This document shows positions 1 to 63,553 of a DNA stretch of 64,000 nucleotides, in pieces. The stretch is taken from the IMG/VR virus record IMGVR_UViG_3300006735_000023, positions 1-64,000 of that record. One strand, written 5' to 3'. Origin of the DNA: a virus. Made by a program: the position numbers and the translations under genes. Numbering within the stretch: position 1 is the first letter of the stretch; each line of letters begins with the position of its first letter. A model generated the notes under the pieces. That model searched no databases, was not told where the DNA came from, and was given only the letters and a program-made list of their open reading frames with translations.

Positions 1-1
1 A

Positions 2-2188
2 AAACTTAAATCATTTTATCTAGAAATAGATAAAGGAGTTAGGTTAACCACAGAATCCTTAGGTTTATCGGCAGGTTCTTCAGACATTCTTAGACAAAAT
101 TTATTAGATGCTTCACAATACGCGGCTAGATTTGGTGTTACCGTTGCTGAAATGGCTAAAGTACAAAAAGATATTGCTAGAGTAACAGGAAGAAATTTAT
201 TAGCTTCTAGAAAGAATTTTGAAGCAATATCAGGTATGGTAAAATTAATACCAGATATTGGTGATATTATAGGTGAATTAAATAAATTTGGTTATAACAT
301 GGAAGACTCCATGAAATTAGTTGAAGAAGTTTATAACTACGCTGGTAAGATAGGGTTAAATGCCGAAGAATTTAGTAAAAACTTTAGAAAAAACTACCAA
401 CTAGCGTCTAGATTTAGATTCAAAAATGGTATCGCTGACCTTAAGAAAATAACTGGGGAAGCCCAAAGGTTAATGACAAATATGGAATCTATTGCTGGAT
501 TCGCAGATAAAGTTTTTAGACCAGAGGGGGCAATTGAGGCAGCTGCTCAATTACAAGTATTAGGGGGTCAATTTGGGAAACTAGGAGACCCTTTCAAACT
601 AATGCATATGGCCAGAAATGATATGGCAGGTTTTGTTGATGAAGTAATGAATGCAACCAAATTTACAGCATTTTTTAATAAACAAACAGGAGAATTTGAT
701 TTGGCGGCCTCAGATTTAGATCGACTAAGAGAATTGGCTAAAATTACCGGTGAGGACTTCAAAACTTTAGCAGATAGGGCACTTCTACAATCCCAGTTCG
801 GAATGATTGACCAACAAATACGAGCAAGAGTTAGTGCTGAAGATAGGTTAATGATACAAAATATGGCTAAGGTTGGTAAAGATGGTAGATTTACAATGGA
901 GATTAAAGATGCATACGGACACGTACAAAAAGTAGTAGACGTTTCTAAACTAACTCCAGAAATGATTAAAGAAATGAGAGAAAATCAAAAAGCTCTAGAG
1001 GCCCGTTCTAAAGATTTAATGACATTCCAAGAAAACTTTGACGCAGTTGCTAATATGTTAAGATTAACACTTTTACCAGTAATGGAACTTCTTGGTGGTC
1101 TTGCACGTGATTTATCAGAATGGTTGGCAAATCTTAGCGATAGGATGAAAACAGTAATTTCTGTTGGTGTTATAGCATTGGGTGCTTTTTTCGCCTATAA
1201 ATCTATGACAATTGCTGGAGGAATTTTTGGAGCCGCAGCTGGAAGAGCGATGGCAATGACTGGAGGAATGGCAGGTGGTGCGGGAATGGCGAGTGGTTCT
1301 CAAATGTTAGGTGCTGGTAAGATGCAAAAAGCTAGATTACTTGGTACTGCTGCGGTTATCGCAGCCATTGGGGCGGCGGTTATGATGGTAGGTGCTGGTG
1401 TTAATTTTGCAACTAAAGGATTTGCTAGATTGGCCGAGAGTATGGCTTCATTACCAGTTACACACTTACAAGCTTTTAGTGATATAGTTAGTACTATTAT
1501 GTGGTCAATGACCGCAATGATTGGAATATTAGCTTTAACCGCTGCTGGTTTAATGGCGTTTGGTGCGATGGCTACAACTCCAGTAATGTGGGCGGCTGTT
1601 GGAGTGTTACTTGCAATAGGAGGTGCCGCGTTAATGTTAGGAGGTGGTATTGCTTTGGCGAGTTATGGTATGTCTCTTCTAGTCGCAGAAATGGCTAAAT
1701 TGGGAGATTTTGCTGGAATAGGAATGGAAATGTTATTAATGTCCGCAGCAATAGCGACTTTAGGTTTATCTTTGGCGGCGTTAGGTTATACTTTAATGAA
1801 CCCATTCGGTGCTGTTGGTGCAGTTGCTGGAATGGGAATATTATGGGCGTTTAGTGAAATGGGACCAAACCTACAAAAAGCAGGTGAAGGGGCAAAACTA
1901 TTAACTACAAATTTATATAAATTAGGTGGTGCAGTATCATCTTTAGGAGATGATAATATGGGAGGGGCTCTAGGAAAACTAGAAAGAATTTCAAATTTAG
2001 TACAGAACACCAAAACAAACCCTATAAGAGTACTAGTTGAAGGAGATTTAGGAGGTAAGTTAGATCTAGATGTTGTTGGAGATTCAGGACTAAGAAAAAT
2101 ATTATTAAATGATGGTAGATTCCTAAGAGACCTAACAGAAGAAATAGAAGAAAGATTAAATCTTGACGCTAAAATAAGTGGAAAATAA
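2..2188 (+). CDS. Tail tape measure protein, C-terminal part (partial at left edge)
   Basis: The frame is open from base 2, so the gene begins upstream and the first visible Met (152) is probably internal. About 729 codons are visible. The N-terminal half is helical and charged. The C-terminal half has long Ala/Gly/Met-rich hydrophobic stretches, roughly 330-480 and 500-620 residues after that Met, broken by short polar loops; these look like membrane-spanning or membrane-inserting helices. Tape measure proteins set tail length inside the tube and often carry such segments for DNA delivery across the inner membrane. Its position just before tube-initiator, gp53-like and hub genes matches T4 order (29, 48, 54, 53). 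No peptidase or lysozyme motif is visible in this part. The family call is inferred from composition and synteny. Confidence 0.7.
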   Translation, partial: KLKSFYLEIDKGVRLTTESLGLSAGSSDILRQNLLDASQYAARFGVTVAEMAKVQKDIARVTGRNLLASRKNFEAISGMVKLIPDIGDIIGELNKFGYNMEDSMKLVEEVYNYAGKIGLNAEEFSKNFRKNYQLASRFRFKNGIADLKKITGEAQRLMTNMESIAGFADKVFRPEGAIEAAAQLQVLGGQFGKLGDPFKLMHMARNDMAGFVDEVMNATKFTAFFNKQTGEFDLAASDLDRLRELAKITGEDFKTLADRALLQSQFGMIDQQIRARVSAEDRLMIQNMAKVGKDGRFTMEIKDAYGHVQKVVDVSKLTPEMIKEMRENQKALEARSKDLMTFQENFDAVANMLRLTLLPVMELLGGLARDLSEWLANLSDRMKTVISVGVIALGAFFAYKSMTIAGGIFGAAAGRAMAMTGGMAGGAGMASGSQMLGAGKMQKARLLGTAAVIAAIGAAVMMVGAGVNFATKGFARLAESMASLPVTHLQAFSDIVSTIMWSMTAMIGILALTAAGLMAFGAMATTPVMWAAVGVLLAIGGAALMLGGGIALASYGMSLLVAEMAKLGDFAGIGMEMLLMSAAIATLGLSLAALGYTLMNPFGAVGAVAGMGILWAFSEMGPNLQKAGEGAKLLTTNLYKLGGAVSSLGDDNMGGALGKLERISNLVQNTKTNPIRVLVEGDLGGKLDLDVVGDSGLRKILLNDGRFLRDLTEEIEERLNLDAKISGK

Positions 2189-59175: not shown

Positions 59176-59942
59176 TGGAAACAATAAGAGAATTAGCAAA
59201 ATTTAATCATATTAAGTATTATGATAAACCACACAAATATTATATCGATGGAGAAGAAATGATTTCAGCGACAACCTTTATTGGTAAATTTAAGGAAAAG
59301 TTTGAGGAGGATTATTGGTCTAAAAGAAAGGCAAAAGAGAGAGGAATAACACAAAAAGAAATATTGGCAGAATGGAAACATAAGGCATTAACATCAACAG
59401 AAAAAGGTACAGCCTTTCATGAATATGCGGAAAACTACCTTACTAACAGAATTTTTCCTTACCCTGAAAAAAGAATTAATTCTGTTCTAGGAGAAGGAAA
59501 TGATGTTAAAGAAAGATTTGATAAATTGGTTAAGTTATTTGACAAATTCTATGAAGATTCGTACGGTAGACTAATCCCAATTAGGGCTGAACTTGTTGTA
59601 GGAGATAAAGAATTAGGTATTTGTGGTATGGTCGATCAGTTATTCTTTAATGAAAAAAGTAATAAGTTGGAAATATGGGATTGGAAAACAAATAAAAAGA
59701 TTGATAAAAGTAATAGATGGCAGAATTTCAAAGAACCGGTTTCACATCTAGATGTTTGTGAACTTAATACATATTCTTTACAATTATCACTATACAAATA
59801 CATCATAGGTAGAAACACGAACATTGAACTTGGAGACTGCTATATTGTCTGGTTTAATGAAAAAAATGATAAATATTTTCCAATAAAATGTCATGACTAC
59901 ACAGAGGAAATAAAATTAATGATAGAATCGTACTCAAAATGA
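59175..59942 (+). CDS. PD-(D/E)XK (RecB-like) nuclease
   Basis: 255 residues with motifs of the RecB/exonuclease superfamily: TAFHEYAENYL (motif I His/Glu helix), ICGMVDQLFF with the acidic Asp, LEIWDWKTNKK with the Asp-x-Lys pair, and a Q-containing helix (NTYSLQLSLYKYII). Four scattered Cys do not form a Cas4-type iron-sulfur cluster. It overlaps the primase stop by one base and the gp47 gene by four. The context with gp47/gp46 suggests DNA end processing or host DNA degradation. It is not part of the T4 46/47 operon, so it is an added enzyme. Confidence 0.75.
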   Translation: METIRELAKFNHIKYYDKPHKYYIDGEEMISATTFIGKFKEKFEEDYWSKRKAKERGITQKEILAEWKHKALTSTEKGTAFHEYAENYLTNRIFPYPEKRINSVLGEGNDVKERFDKLVKLFDKFYEDSYGRLIPIRAELVVGDKELGICGMVDQLFFNEKSNKLEIWDWKTNKKIDKSNRWQNFKEPVSHLDVCELNTYSLQLSLYKYIIGRNTNIELGDCYIVWFNEKNDKYFPIKCHDYTEEIKLMIESYSK

Positions 59943-60748
59943 TAAAAGTAATATATCACATAGCGGATATCCACATAAGATTATTTAAGAGACATGAAGA
60001 ATACCAAAGTGTCCTTAATAAGTTCTATAAAATGGTAAAAAAAGACATTGGAAAAAGAGGTTTGTCCAGAGATGAAGTAAGAATCGCCATAGCGGGAGAT
60101 CTAGTACACTCCAAAAACCAAATGACACCAGAATTAGTTAGTTTTGTTATAAAAATGCTTAATGATTGTACCAGCATTTGTAAAACTGTAATAATTTTAG
60201 GTAATCATGATTTTCTCGCAAACAATTTAGATAGGTTAGATGCGTTATCACCACTTATTGAATCATTAAAAAATGAAGACATATTATTTTATAAAGATAC
60301 TGGATGTTATGAAGACGATAATGTAGTATGGTGTGTTTATTCACAAGTAACAGGGTCTGATAGACCTAATATAGAAGAAAAAAAGGAAGAATTACCTGAA
60401 AAAAAATACATTGGATTATACCATGATCCAATAATGGGATTAAAGACTGATGTGGGTTACGAGTTTGAAGATGGTCAAGAAGTAACTATATTTGAAGGTT
60501 TAGATTGGACACTTTGTGGGGACATACATAAACGAGAAGTATTAATTATTGATAAAAGACCAGTAATAATGGTGGGGTCATTAATACAACAAAATTTTGG
60601 TGAAGGAATAAATAAACATGGGTTTTGTATAGTTGATATAGAAAAAGATAAGTACGAATTCAAGGACATAAAAAATGAATATGGATTCTATACTTTTAAG
60701 ATAAAATCTATAGACGATATAGAAATGGAAAAAGAAATATTATTATGA
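59939..60748 (+). CDS. 47: gp47-like recombination nuclease (SbcD/Mre11 family)
   Basis: 269 residues with the metallophosphatase motifs in order: HIADIHIR (Asp10, His12), IAIAGDLVHS (Asp54), VIILGNHDF (Asn89, His90, Asp91), then LYHDPIMG and WTLCGDIHKRE. T4 gp47 (339) pairs with gp46 to resect DNA ends for recombination-dependent replication. The protein here is shorter, so the C-terminal capping part may be reduced. Start ATGA overlaps the upstream stop. The gp46 partner is separated by one small coiled-coil gene. Confidence 0.85.
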   Translation: MIKVIYHIADIHIRLFKRHEEYQSVLNKFYKMVKKDIGKRGLSRDEVRIAIAGDLVHSKNQMTPELVSFVIKMLNDCTSICKTVIILGNHDFLANNLDRLDALSPLIESLKNEDILFYKDTGCYEDDNVVWCVYSQVTGSDRPNIEEKKEELPEKKYIGLYHDPIMGLKTDVGYEFEDGQEVTIFEGLDWTLCGDIHKREVLIIDKRPVIMVGSLIQQNFGEGINKHGFCIVDIEKDKYEFKDIKNEYGFYTFKIKSIDDIEMEKEILL

Positions 60749-61215
60749 AAATAAAAGTTTTAGAAGAATTGGAAGATGAATTTAGAAAATTCTGTAAATT
60801 AAATGAAATAGAAGACATAAATAAAGAAGCTTATAACTGTTTCATTTCAGGTTTTAATGTTAGAAAATACGGACCAACACCAATAGGCCAAAAAGAGGTG
60901 GTGGAAAAAGTTGTTGAGGTGGAAAAAATTATTGAAAAAATTATTGAGAAAGAAGTACCAATAACCGATGATGTAAAAATACAAGAATTTATAAAAGAAA
61001 TAGAAAACTTAAAAAATAACTATAATGATTTACAAGGTCTAACTAATGAAAAAGACAATCAAATAAAGGCTTTAAGTTCACAAACTCAATTTTATAAAAC
61101 ACAAATATCTGGACTACAAAAGGAGATGGAAAAACGTACAGGGCCTTTACAAAGATTAATGAGAGGTGATTTCCTAAGAGGCTCTAAACTAAATAATAAC
61201 TTATACGATGACTAA
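60745..61215 (+). CDS. Coiled-coil protein between gp47 and gp46
   Basis: 156 residues. Residues about 45-75 form a Val/Ile/Glu/Lys heptad run (VEKVVEVEKIIEKIIEKEVP), and residues 80-130 form a second long helix (EIENLKNNYNDLQGLTNEKD). The C-terminus is basic (LQRLMRGDFLRGSK). The N-terminal 40 residues look like a small helical domain with FCKLNEIEDINKEAYNC. It overlaps gp47 by four bases and gp46 by eight, so it is made with them. T4 has the small unrelated gene 46.1/46.2 region there; a role as a third subunit of the 46/47 complex is plausible but unproven. Confidence 0.65.
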   Translation: MKIKVLEELEDEFRKFCKLNEIEDINKEAYNCFISGFNVRKYGPTPIGQKEVVEKVVEVEKIIEKIIEKEVPITDDVKIQEFIKEIENLKNNYNDLQGLTNEKDNQIKALSSQTQFYKTQISGLQKEMEKRTGPLQRLMRGDFLRGSKLNNNLYDD

Positions 61216-63553
61216 AATAAAAGTACCACCTAAGGCAAATCTTAGAATTTTTTGGGAAGACAAAGCGGAAAACTACACCCAACAACGAAGAAAAAAAGTT
61301 GAGTCATACTTTAGAAACAAATACGGAGTAAAAAAAGTTAACCTAATTTTCAAACCAACAAAAATTAATGAAAAAACAGGAAAAGTAGAAATAGACATTA
61401 GTGAGAATATAATGGATGATAATTACCAAAAAAAGTTATTTGCATCCTGGTTAAGTTTAACAAATCATGAAGTTGAGTGGGAAAGATTACTAGCTCTAAA
61501 CACTAAAGTCCAAGAAAAATTAGAACAAGAAAGAGATATTGATTATAGACATCGTACTTGGAAAATTAAAAAAATAGAATTTGATAATTTTTTATCTTTT
61601 GGTGAGGGCAATGTTGTTGATTATTCTAAATTAAATGGAATTAGTGTTGTTTCATCATCTCCTCCTAATTTTGGAGGTAAAACTATTTTTTGTTTAGATC
61701 TTCTACTATTCCTATTGTTTAATACCACAACCAGAACCTCAAAAACTATAGAAATTTTTAATAAATATTCAAATCAAGATAGAGTAAGGGTTAAAGGGTA
61801 TCTGATTATTGATAATGAAGAGTATAGTATTGAAAGAGGTATTATACGTAGAAAAACTAAAAAAGGAGATTGGGCGGTAAAGACAGAACTAAGATTTCAA
61901 AAAATAATGGAGGATGGGTCGGTATTGAATTTAGAAGGAGAACAAAGAAGAGAAACAGATGAACTTATAAAGAAAAGTATAGGAACATATGACGATTTTA
62001 TGGCAACAATAATTTCTACCGCTTCCAACCTAGAAAACCTAATTGAAACTAAACCAACGGAAAGAGGTAAAACACTCTCTAAATTCATAGGATTAGAAAT
62101 ATTAGAAAATAAAGAAAAAATAGCCAAAGAAATGTATTCCAACTGGAATAAAACATTAAAGATGAATCTTTATAATACCGAAGAGTTAAAAAATGATAAT
62201 AAAATTCTTAAAGAAGATATAGAAGAAGATGAAAAATTAAAAGTTGGAGAAAACGCGTTATTAAAACAACTTGAAAATAATATTGGAGATATTGATAATG
62301 AAAAAGAGTTTTACCTTTCCCAAAAAACAAAGATTGATGATAACTTAACCAAGGTTAAACCCAATGAGATACAAGAAGAAATACAAAAGATTGAAAAAAA
62401 GATAACCGATGCAGATAAACTCTACGAAGAAAGAGAAAAAGAAATAACTAATATTGGGAATACAAATTACGATATTGAAATATACACCTCACTTACACAA
62501 GAAGAAAAGGATGTAGAAATACTCATAGTAAAAAAGAATTCTGAAATTAATGTAAAACAAAATCAAGTTAAAAACTTAGAGAATAGTGAATTTTGTCCAG
62601 TTTGTAAAAGAGCTATGGAAGAAGTGGATCATAGTAAAGAAATAACAGAAGTTAAAAAACAAATTGAAAAATTTGAGGACGAAAAGGTTAAGGAACAAAA
62701 GAGATTAAAAAAAATCCAGGATAAATTAGAAAAACAAAAACAACGTAAAAGTAATTTTGATGAGGTAGAAAAAATTAAAATAACACTTAGTAGGATAGAA
62801 ATTGATAGGGAGAGGTGGGAGTTAGAAATAGAGAGAAAAAAAGAAGTAATAAACAAATACAACACCAATCTTAAAGCAATTGAAAATAATATAGAGATAG
62901 AGAAAAAAATTGTTGATGCTAATTACAGAAAGAGTAAAAAATCTTTAGAAAGAGATAACTCATTAAATAAAATTACAAGTATGTCATCAAGAATTGCGGT
63001 AAATCAAAAAACTCTAACTAATAATGAAAAGATTATTGAAGTTATAAAAAAAGAGGAAGAGATAGATAATGTCTTTAGAGTATTCATTCAAATGGTAGGA
63101 AAAAACGGTATCGGTAAAATTGTTATGAATAATATAATTCCTTCGATTAATAATGAGTTAGAAAGATTGCTAAGTGACACAACTGAGTTTGATGTTAAGT
63201 TAGAACTTAATGAAAGAAAAGAGATAGAATTTCACATGATGGATAGGAAGACTCAAATATCCAAACCTCTAGTCGCTGGTAGTGGATTCGAAAAAACTTT
63301 AGCCTCGTTAGCTCTAAGATGTGTTCTTACTAGAATTAGTTGTTTACCAAAACCTAACATAATTGTTTTAGATGAAATACTAGGTAAGGTATCAAATGAA
63401 AATCTTGAAAGAGTCTCTCAATTCTTTGATAAGGTAAAAGAATATTTCCCTATTGTTATGTTAATCACACATAATGAAATGGTTAAAGACTGGTCTGAAA
63501 AAATATTAACAATAACAAAAAAAGATAACATTAGTTCTATTTGTAGAGTCTAA
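61208..63553 (+). CDS. 46: gp46-like recombination ATPase (SbcC/Rad50 family) with N-terminal extension
   Basis: 781 residues; T4 gp46 has 560. The SMC-type head starts at about residue 117 (WKIKKIEFDNFLSFGEGNVV), after an N-terminal extension of about 115 residues that T4 lacks. Walker A is PPNFGGKT at 152-159; its first Gly is replaced by Pro. A long coiled coil (about 300-640) contains the zinc hook Cys463-Pro-Val-Cys466. The signature AGSGFEKTLASLALR (about 690), Walker B strand IIVLDE (Asp722, Glu723) and switch MLITHNEM follow. It pairs with gp47 for DNA end processing. Overlaps the coiled-coil gene by eight bases. Confidence 0.87.
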   Translation: MTKIKVPPKANLRIFWEDKAENYTQQRRKKVESYFRNKYGVKKVNLIFKPTKINEKTGKVEIDISENIMDDNYQKKLFASWLSLTNHEVEWERLLALNTKVQEKLEQERDIDYRHRTWKIKKIEFDNFLSFGEGNVVDYSKLNGISVVSSSPPNFGGKTIFCLDLLLFLLFNTTTRTSKTIEIFNKYSNQDRVRVKGYLIIDNEEYSIERGIIRRKTKKGDWAVKTELRFQKIMEDGSVLNLEGEQRRETDELIKKSIGTYDDFMATIISTASNLENLIETKPTERGKTLSKFIGLEILENKEKIAKEMYSNWNKTLKMNLYNTEELKNDNKILKEDIEEDEKLKVGENALLKQLENNIGDIDNEKEFYLSQKTKIDDNLTKVKPNEIQEEIQKIEKKITDADKLYEEREKEITNIGNTNYDIEIYTSLTQEEKDVEILIVKKNSEINVKQNQVKNLENSEFCPVCKRAMEEVDHSKEITEVKKQIEKFEDEKVKEQKRLKKIQDKLEKQKQRKSNFDEVEKIKITLSRIEIDRERWELEIERKKEVINKYNTNLKAIENNIEIEKKIVDANYRKSKKSLERDNSLNKITSMSSRIAVNQKTLTNNEKIIEVIKKEEEIDNVFRVFIQMVGKNGIGKIVMNNIIPSINNELERLLSDTTEFDVKLELNERKEIEFHMMDRKTQISKPLVAGSGFEKTLASLALRCVLTRISCLPKPNIIVLDEILGKVSNENLERVSQFFDKVKEYFPIVMLITHNEMVKDWSEKILTITKKDNISSICRV

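Follow-up and report, generated by a model that had tools for sequence, protein, structure and literature searches.

An apparently shifted inter-subunit boundary in a phage Mre11-Rad50 pair, with a proposed capping domain on gp46

In this work, we examined the genes for gp47 and gp46, the phage counterparts of Mre11 and Rad50, in a 64,000-nucleotide stretch of viral DNA (hereafter the window; positions 1 to 64,000 of IMG/VR record IMGVR_UViG_3300006735_000023, which is 79,143 bases long). The two products are very probably Mre11 and Rad50 subunits between which the inter-subunit cut has moved, so that the capping domain and the Rad50-binding helix-loop-helix (HLH) of a fused ancestor now form the N-terminus of gp46. 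Two separate genes encode a nuclease and an ATPase with an N-terminal extension; this domain content is fixed in the sampled clade and co-linear with single-chain fused relatives.

Gene arrangement and co-linearity with fused relatives

The gp46 open reading frame (ORF) starts with ATG and encodes 781 residues (61208-63553, + strand). In its AlphaFold2 model (88 aligned sequences, mean predicted local distance difference test score (pLDDT) 84.5, predicted template modelling score (pTM) 0.60), the Rad50-head alignment begins at model residue 116-118, corresponding to the first Rad50 residues of the solved heads; against 3av0_B, residues 116..781 align to 1..1004 with Z 30.3, a root-mean-square deviation of 3.5 and 352 aligned residues (VIA). 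About 116 residues therefore lie upstream of the head, and the N-terminal extension of about 115 residues claimed in an earlier note on this DNA stands. That note had named a true start near residue 110 as a finding that would undo the extension; such a start was rejected, since codons 1 and 69 are the only ATG, GTG or TTG codons within the first 135. The Rad50/SbcC ABC-ATPase proper, residues 118-781 (61559..63553, + strand; delimited with VIA; phrog_77, E 1.1e-45), has an ABC head fold interrupted by a long coiled coil, with long helices from 324-371 to 555-630 in the model. A Pfam AAA_23 search of the phage's own genome gave no match, though the gp46 family profile detects gp46 there.

The partner gp47 is a Mre11/SbcD-like metallophosphoesterase of 269 residues (59939..60748, + strand) that matches PF00149 (E 5.9e-8; 33.8 bits, cut-off 21.5) and phrog_100 and comprises the nuclease core only. 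The family profile was built from 77 of 78 sequences (L005 omitted), pre-selected as ORFs of 241-299 residues from stop to stop; on solved SbcD and Mre11 chains it covers the nuclease alone, ending at chain residue 251 (7dog) or 233 (1ii7). Nuclease ORFs of split loci measure at most 294 residues from stop to stop, and 16 standalone canonical phage gp47 span 331-374 residues with the C-terminal part retained. Read from its sequence, the window gp47 is a protein without capping domain and Rad50-binding helices in its own chain. Residues D10, H12, D54, N89, H90, H162 and H197 are invariant across the 77 proteins. The GHxH metal motif reads GDIH in the window (D195-I-H197, 60521-60529), with D195 and H197 likewise invariant in the clade; GDIH also occurs in the fused relatives L003, L004 and L005 and in PTm1, compared with SGHFH in T4 gp47 and LGHIH in SbcD.

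For the spread of this arrangement, 167 sources were scored, namely the window and L001-L166. They were fetched by similarity, with the best 80 loci taken per scan, so the counts give no prevalence, and they refer to loci rather than genomes because several loci come from one contig. In 140 of the 167 the two genes are split and gp46 carries the extension, whereas the extension stood on gp47 in none of the 147 complete enough to tell. A first scoring had given 141 split loci, from which L005, whose fused-type gene an ORF interrupts, was subtracted; the remaining sources comprise 2 fused genes, 4 with gp46 broken near Walker A and 20 incomplete ones. In 146 loci, among them the window, gp47 and gp46 each have an ORF of their own. 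Large phage records carried a single nuclease-only gp47 alongside a single extended gp46 in 12/12 cases, and no second full gp47 was found in any of these 12; two of them (G008, G010) hold second, weak phosphoesterase matches, which extend only over nuclease-profile positions 37-91, or over 62-118 and 1-120 in phrog_100. When prokaryote genomes were scanned with two short patterns, one relative emerged, L208, an 83.8-kb Prochlorococcus single-cell contig. It shows the same gene order together with a sigma-70-like ORF, identified from reading the sequence, and is probably itself a phage contig.

The gp46 set used for all column counts below holds 88 non-redundant proteins (88 of 141 loci kept after an 85% identity filter; 123 of the 141 sequences are distinct). 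The extension and the Walker A proline treated below occur in 88/88 of these clade members and are therefore no peculiarity of the window phage. The earlier note had proposed that finding both features in all gp46 homologues would overturn its claim of an unusual protein. This applies within the clade but not beyond it, since the extension has no parallel in gp46 of T4, KVP40, Staphylococcus phage 812 and Listeria phage LP-083-2 or in E. coli SbcC, all of which start at the head strand, as the note had described for Rad50-type ATPases in general. Judged by these sequences, the shifted split is the mark of a clade, a large group of phages.

Evidence on the identity of the extension comes from relatives in which both subunits form a single chain. 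L003 is a single fused ORF of 1202 residues in the 735-kb phage record LR756501, and blastp aligns residues 1-255 of window gp47 to L003 1-250 (E 1e-34) and residues 12-414 of window gp46 to L003 272-672 (E 3.8e-27). Two related groups of single-ORF fused proteins, L003-type and L004-type, were collected, 31 ORFs in total of which 25 are distinct. A profile made from the 88 split extensions alone (search with Z set to 1000 and filters off) matches 29 of the 31 in the segment that separates nuclease from Rad50 head, with E 7.5e-7 to 2.5e-11 for all 11 L003-type rows; matches to the L004-type are weaker (E 5.8e-7 to 0.0074, in several covering the helix part only), and L190 and L195 gave no match. 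The nuclease profile of the 77 split-type gp47 stops at fused residue 253-282, just ahead of this stretch. The corresponding position in Mre11 is occupied by the capping domain and the HLH, the latter binding the Rad50 coiled coil; a stretch of that length is reportedly retained by most of the Mre11/Rad50 fusions in Yoshida et al. 2011 (PMC3175470).

From this co-linearity and the predicted secondary structure, we propose that gp46 residues 1-116 (61208..61555, + strand) represent the relocated Mre11 cap and Rad50-binding domain. In the AlphaFold2 models, a beta-alpha-beta unit (E11-18, H25-39, E43-50; 61238..61357, + strand), the putative cap, is followed by two helices (H71-85, H91-108; 61418..61531, + strand), the putative HLH. 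In line with the proposal, the extension has changed little at the amino-acid level: its nonsynonymous divergence (pN) is 0.10 against L001 and 0.07 against L002, at a synonymous divergence (pS) of about 0.75; because pS is saturated, no pN/pS ratio is given.

One fused-type gene is itself interrupted: in L005 (1255-5480, from the 484-kb phage LR756508), the nuclease domain contains a 305-residue ORF that matches PF08722, a TnsA-like endonuclease family (27.2 bits, cut-off 26.5).

The altered P-loop of gp46

The Walker A region of gp46 reads SSPPNFGGKT (S150-T159; 61655..61684, + strand), with P152 at the place of the first glycine and G157, K158 and T159 retained, as the earlier note had stated for P152, K158 and T159. 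What it overlooked is that the loop is also longer, alignments placing two inserted residues before the first-Gly position relative to Rad50. The clade follows the pattern S-x-P-x-N-[FQT]-[GS]-G-K-[ST] in 88/88 proteins; proline replaces the first glycine in every one, and gp46 therefore departs from the canonical GxxxxGK[ST]. The lysine is present in 88/88, with position 159 being T in 67 and S in 21. The zinc hook CPVC (C463/C466; 62594..62605, + strand), the ABC signature S-G-F-E (692-695; 63281..63292, + strand; S692, G693 and E695) and Walker B D722-E723 (63371..63376, + strand) are kept throughout the 88, and H755 in 84. The note's view that all other motifs are intact holds for these three but fails at the Q-loop, where glutamine is replaced by Ala272 in the window and by A, G, E, S or L, never Q, across all 88; the position was set from alignments in which L004 and L005 carry Gln.

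Departure at the first-Gly position extends beyond this clade. It is Ala in 19, Gly in 11 and Phe in 1 of the 31 fused relatives; T4 gp46, KVP40 gp46 and SbcC possess the glycine; and 812 and LP-083-2 gp46 show His or Lys there, behind a different, longer insertion. This insertion before the P-loop is carried by SPO1-like gp46 (L217 423-2342, L219 225-2108; GENKSNESFHSNGSGKS in phage 812), so that lengthening of the P-loop takes more than one form among phage gp46. As these proteins also deviate at Walker A, the variant alone is no bar to Rad50 membership. By alignment, phage gp46 thus deviates here in several ways, of which the proline is one, though it is fixed in this clade.

Substitution of the first glycine, the lengthened loop and the absent Q-loop glutamine, all in 88/88, could be taken to indicate an ATPase that binds ATP without hydrolysing it, or that no longer needs ATP. 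We consider this improbable: K158, the signature and Walker B are present in every clade member and position 159 is always T or S, while the Ala and Phe of fused relatives and the His and Lys of two SPO1-like gp46 indicate that the first-Gly position tolerates change. The apparent split intein described below, moreover, sits between K158 and T159, the conserved active-site type of spot. Since the lysine, the Ser/Thr, the signature and Walker B all remain, an active ATPase is to be expected, and gp46 is most likely a member of the Rad50/SbcC/gp46 ATPases that is predicted to be active. Nucleotide would then be bound through an altered yet conserved P-loop.

In five relatives (L079 3950-7851, L091 8344-12274, L098 7000-9903, L102 8486-12424, L126 7442-11781), an apparent split intein interrupts gp46 between K158 and T159. 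Inteins use conserved active-site spots. The N-part comprises about 30 residues starting with Cys, and the C-part ends in VSHN before Thr (Val in L079). Two of the five loci were scanned, giving PF14890 matches under the Pfam cut-off (E 3.1e-6 in L098, 2.3e-5 in L126) and a TIGR01443 match of 25.2 bits in L126, above the cut-off of 15.6. An ORF of 336-349 residues lies between the gp46 halves in four of the five loci, with none in L098; that of L126 gave only weak helix-turn-helix and DUF559 matches. An Rfam search of L005, L126 and L098 gave no match.

Weighing and history of the shifted split

Several results weigh against assigning the extension to Mre11. Taken alone, it aligned to SPO1-like, T4-like and E. 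coli SbcD gp47 profiles with hhalign probabilities below 1%, and to the Tenacibaculum fusions with 63% (E 7e-5) if fused and split rows were combined but 3% if fused rows only were used. Its profile reached a best E of 0.067 against PDB sequences, none of them an Mre11; every Foldseek match had E >0.1; the best VIA Z was 4.6, for tautomerases, with no Mre11 among the best 50 rows; and the extension modelled by itself reaches a pTM of 0.40. The trees, moreover, give only moderate support for a split clade nested within the fused proteins. Against canonical gp47, the extension profile returned chance-level rows (E 0.51 and 1.1); canonical gp47/Mre11 C-termini are very divergent from one another. 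Among the structural rows, E. coli SbcD (7yzp_A) ranks 2 of 334 in the Foldseek PDB search at E 0.64, and rows 1, 3, 5, 7, 8, 10 and 11 of the BFVD fold search carry names fitting gp47 or fused repair nucleases, the best with E 0.11. Joined nuclease and extension profiles align significantly to SPO1-like, T4-like and Tenacibaculum gp47, the SPO1-like alignment ending at template residue 307 of 348 when split rows are included and that to E. coli SbcD at the nuclease end; since the nuclease anchors these alignments, they are no independent proof for the extension.

The lack of a significant match between the stand-alone extension and canonical gp47 C-termini, the Foldseek values and the foreign folds leading the VIA rows would suit a protein-binding domain of unrelated origin, newly gained by an otherwise ordinary gp46, with gp47 having merely lost its C-terminus. 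The earlier note had considered such an added domain, which was not borne out: the homologous stretch of fused relatives lies exactly between nuclease and Rad50, gp47 stops where this stretch begins, and the extension agrees with cap and HLH in length and in its predicted beta-alpha-beta/helix-helix order. We therefore regard a foreign domain as unlikely. That the split is apparent only, with frameshifting, RNA splicing or protein trans-splicing joining the products into a normal fused protein, is highly improbable, for although fused relatives exist and an apparent split intein occurs in this gene family, albeit at the P-loop, a further gene lies between gp47 and gp46 as a rule (193 to 4301 bases, median 1305, from gp47 ORF end to the stop preceding the gp46 ORF in 146 loci), and in G009 (L139, a 401-kb record) the nuclease (161034-161855, - strand) and the extended gp46 (170834-173191, + strand) lie on opposite strands with about 9 kb between them, which means that the two proteins cannot stem from one reading there.

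For the history of the shifted cut, trees were calculated for 47 taxa, comprising 23 of 82 split pairs, 7 of 7 distinct L003-type, 10 of 18 other distinct fused proteins, 2 Tenacibaculum fusions and 5 canonical pairs. The split clade is monophyletic, with ultrafast bootstrap (UFBoot) values of 100 for the concatenated, 100 for the head and 72 for the nuclease alignment. It is joined by the L003-type and Tenacibaculum fusions (76, 60 and 90 in the same order), the L004-type falling outside, and split and all fused proteins together are separated from canonical ones (100, 99 and 96). In the nuclease tree, the L003-type rows do not form one clade by themselves, the Tenacibaculum pair falling within. 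Since the split clade branches within the fused proteins, the simplest history, a moderately supported one, would be a fusion that later came apart at a shifted site.

We propose a model in which a fused nuclease-cap-HLH-Rad50 ancestor was cut in the linker between nuclease and cap, now the site of a coiled-coil gene. Cap and HLH would thus be held covalently on the ATPase and move with it, while the nuclease dimer would dock non-covalently onto the cap. Nuclease engagement would thereby become a contact between subunits rather than a hinge within one chain, and the complex would act on DNA ends for recombination-dependent replication. The switching of the Mre11 nuclease by ATP bound to Rad50, via cap and Rad50-binding helices, has long been under study, and here a natural cut between nuclease and cap, with cap and HLH fixed to the ATPase, could serve as a ready-made test of the contacts that carry the signal.

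Intervening gene, genomic setting and known systems

Between the two genes of the window lies a third, encoding 156 residues (60745..61215, + strand) and overlapping both gp47 and gp46 by a few bases. Its product consists of a short N-terminal region with GFxxxKYG, a VEK-rich, coiled-coil middle and a conserved tail. An ORF matching its profile was found between gp47 and gp46 in 140 of 146 loci, adjoining the 3' side of the nuclease gene in 113; the profile was built from 3 sequences, and part of the matches may come from the coiled coil. It found no match within about 3 kb of the fused genes L178-L207, nor in L003-L006. Present in nearly all split loci and not detected beside fused genes, this ORF may have been the wedge. 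Three motifs, picked after inspection of the sequences, were counted in 119 distinct intervening proteins and 2074 control ORFs: a GFxxxKYG-type motif (100 vs 9), [GS]S[NKRD][LI] within the final 25 residues (60 vs 9) and a hydrophobic-Tyr-acid end (59 vs 111). Based on these sequence features, the intervening protein is possibly a third subunit or adaptor. A more far-reaching and decidedly tentative idea is a three-part machine, in which this adaptor would tether a dissociable nuclease to the cap-Rad50 chain and recruitment of the nuclease would be regulated apart from ATP-driven head closure by the re-shaped P-loop.

Proteins near gp46 and gp47 match a DnaG-type primase, a PD-(D/E)XK exonuclease and a RuvC-like resolvase, and 5 of ten further window proteins scanned gave matches, to DnaB helicase, UvsX-like recombinase, single-strand binding protein, ribonucleotide reductase and baseplate wedge. 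On account of these replication, recombination and baseplate proteins, the window would fit a contractile-tailed phage with T4-like recombination-dependent replication.

Dassa et al. in 2009 reportedly described fractured genes with split inteins. The five relatives with gp46 broken at the P-loop, four of them with a long ORF in between, resemble such genes, while window gp46 is intact. gp46, Rad50 and SbcC are absent from the text of PMC7090010, and gp46 did not appear as a split-intein host among the literature matches listed. SbcC and SbcD are nearly universal according to part of a jumbo-phage overview (PMC7824862). Fusions of Mre11 and Rad50 are already published, but the shifted split appears to be new, as we found no report of it in the open-access literature, the scope of the search, with subscription papers outside it.

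Single-chain fusions such as Mimivirus R555 (PMC3175470) share with the window the order nuclease, stretch of cap/HLH length, Rad50; they differ in that the window chain is cut between nuclease and cap to give two genes, a cut which the accessible portion of that paper leaves undescribed. With Mre11-Rad50, SbcD-SbcC and T4 gp47-gp46, the pair shares the combination of a phosphoesterase and an ABC-ATPase with a zinc-hook coiled coil as well as the order 47-46. One or more small genes between 47 and 46 are also present in T4, KVP40, a cyanophage and Staphylococcus phage 812, with none in SE14 and D507. In contrast to the window pair, however, the 16 canonical gp47 proteins keep their C-terminal part, and the four canonical phage gp46 as well as SbcC begin directly at the head strand.

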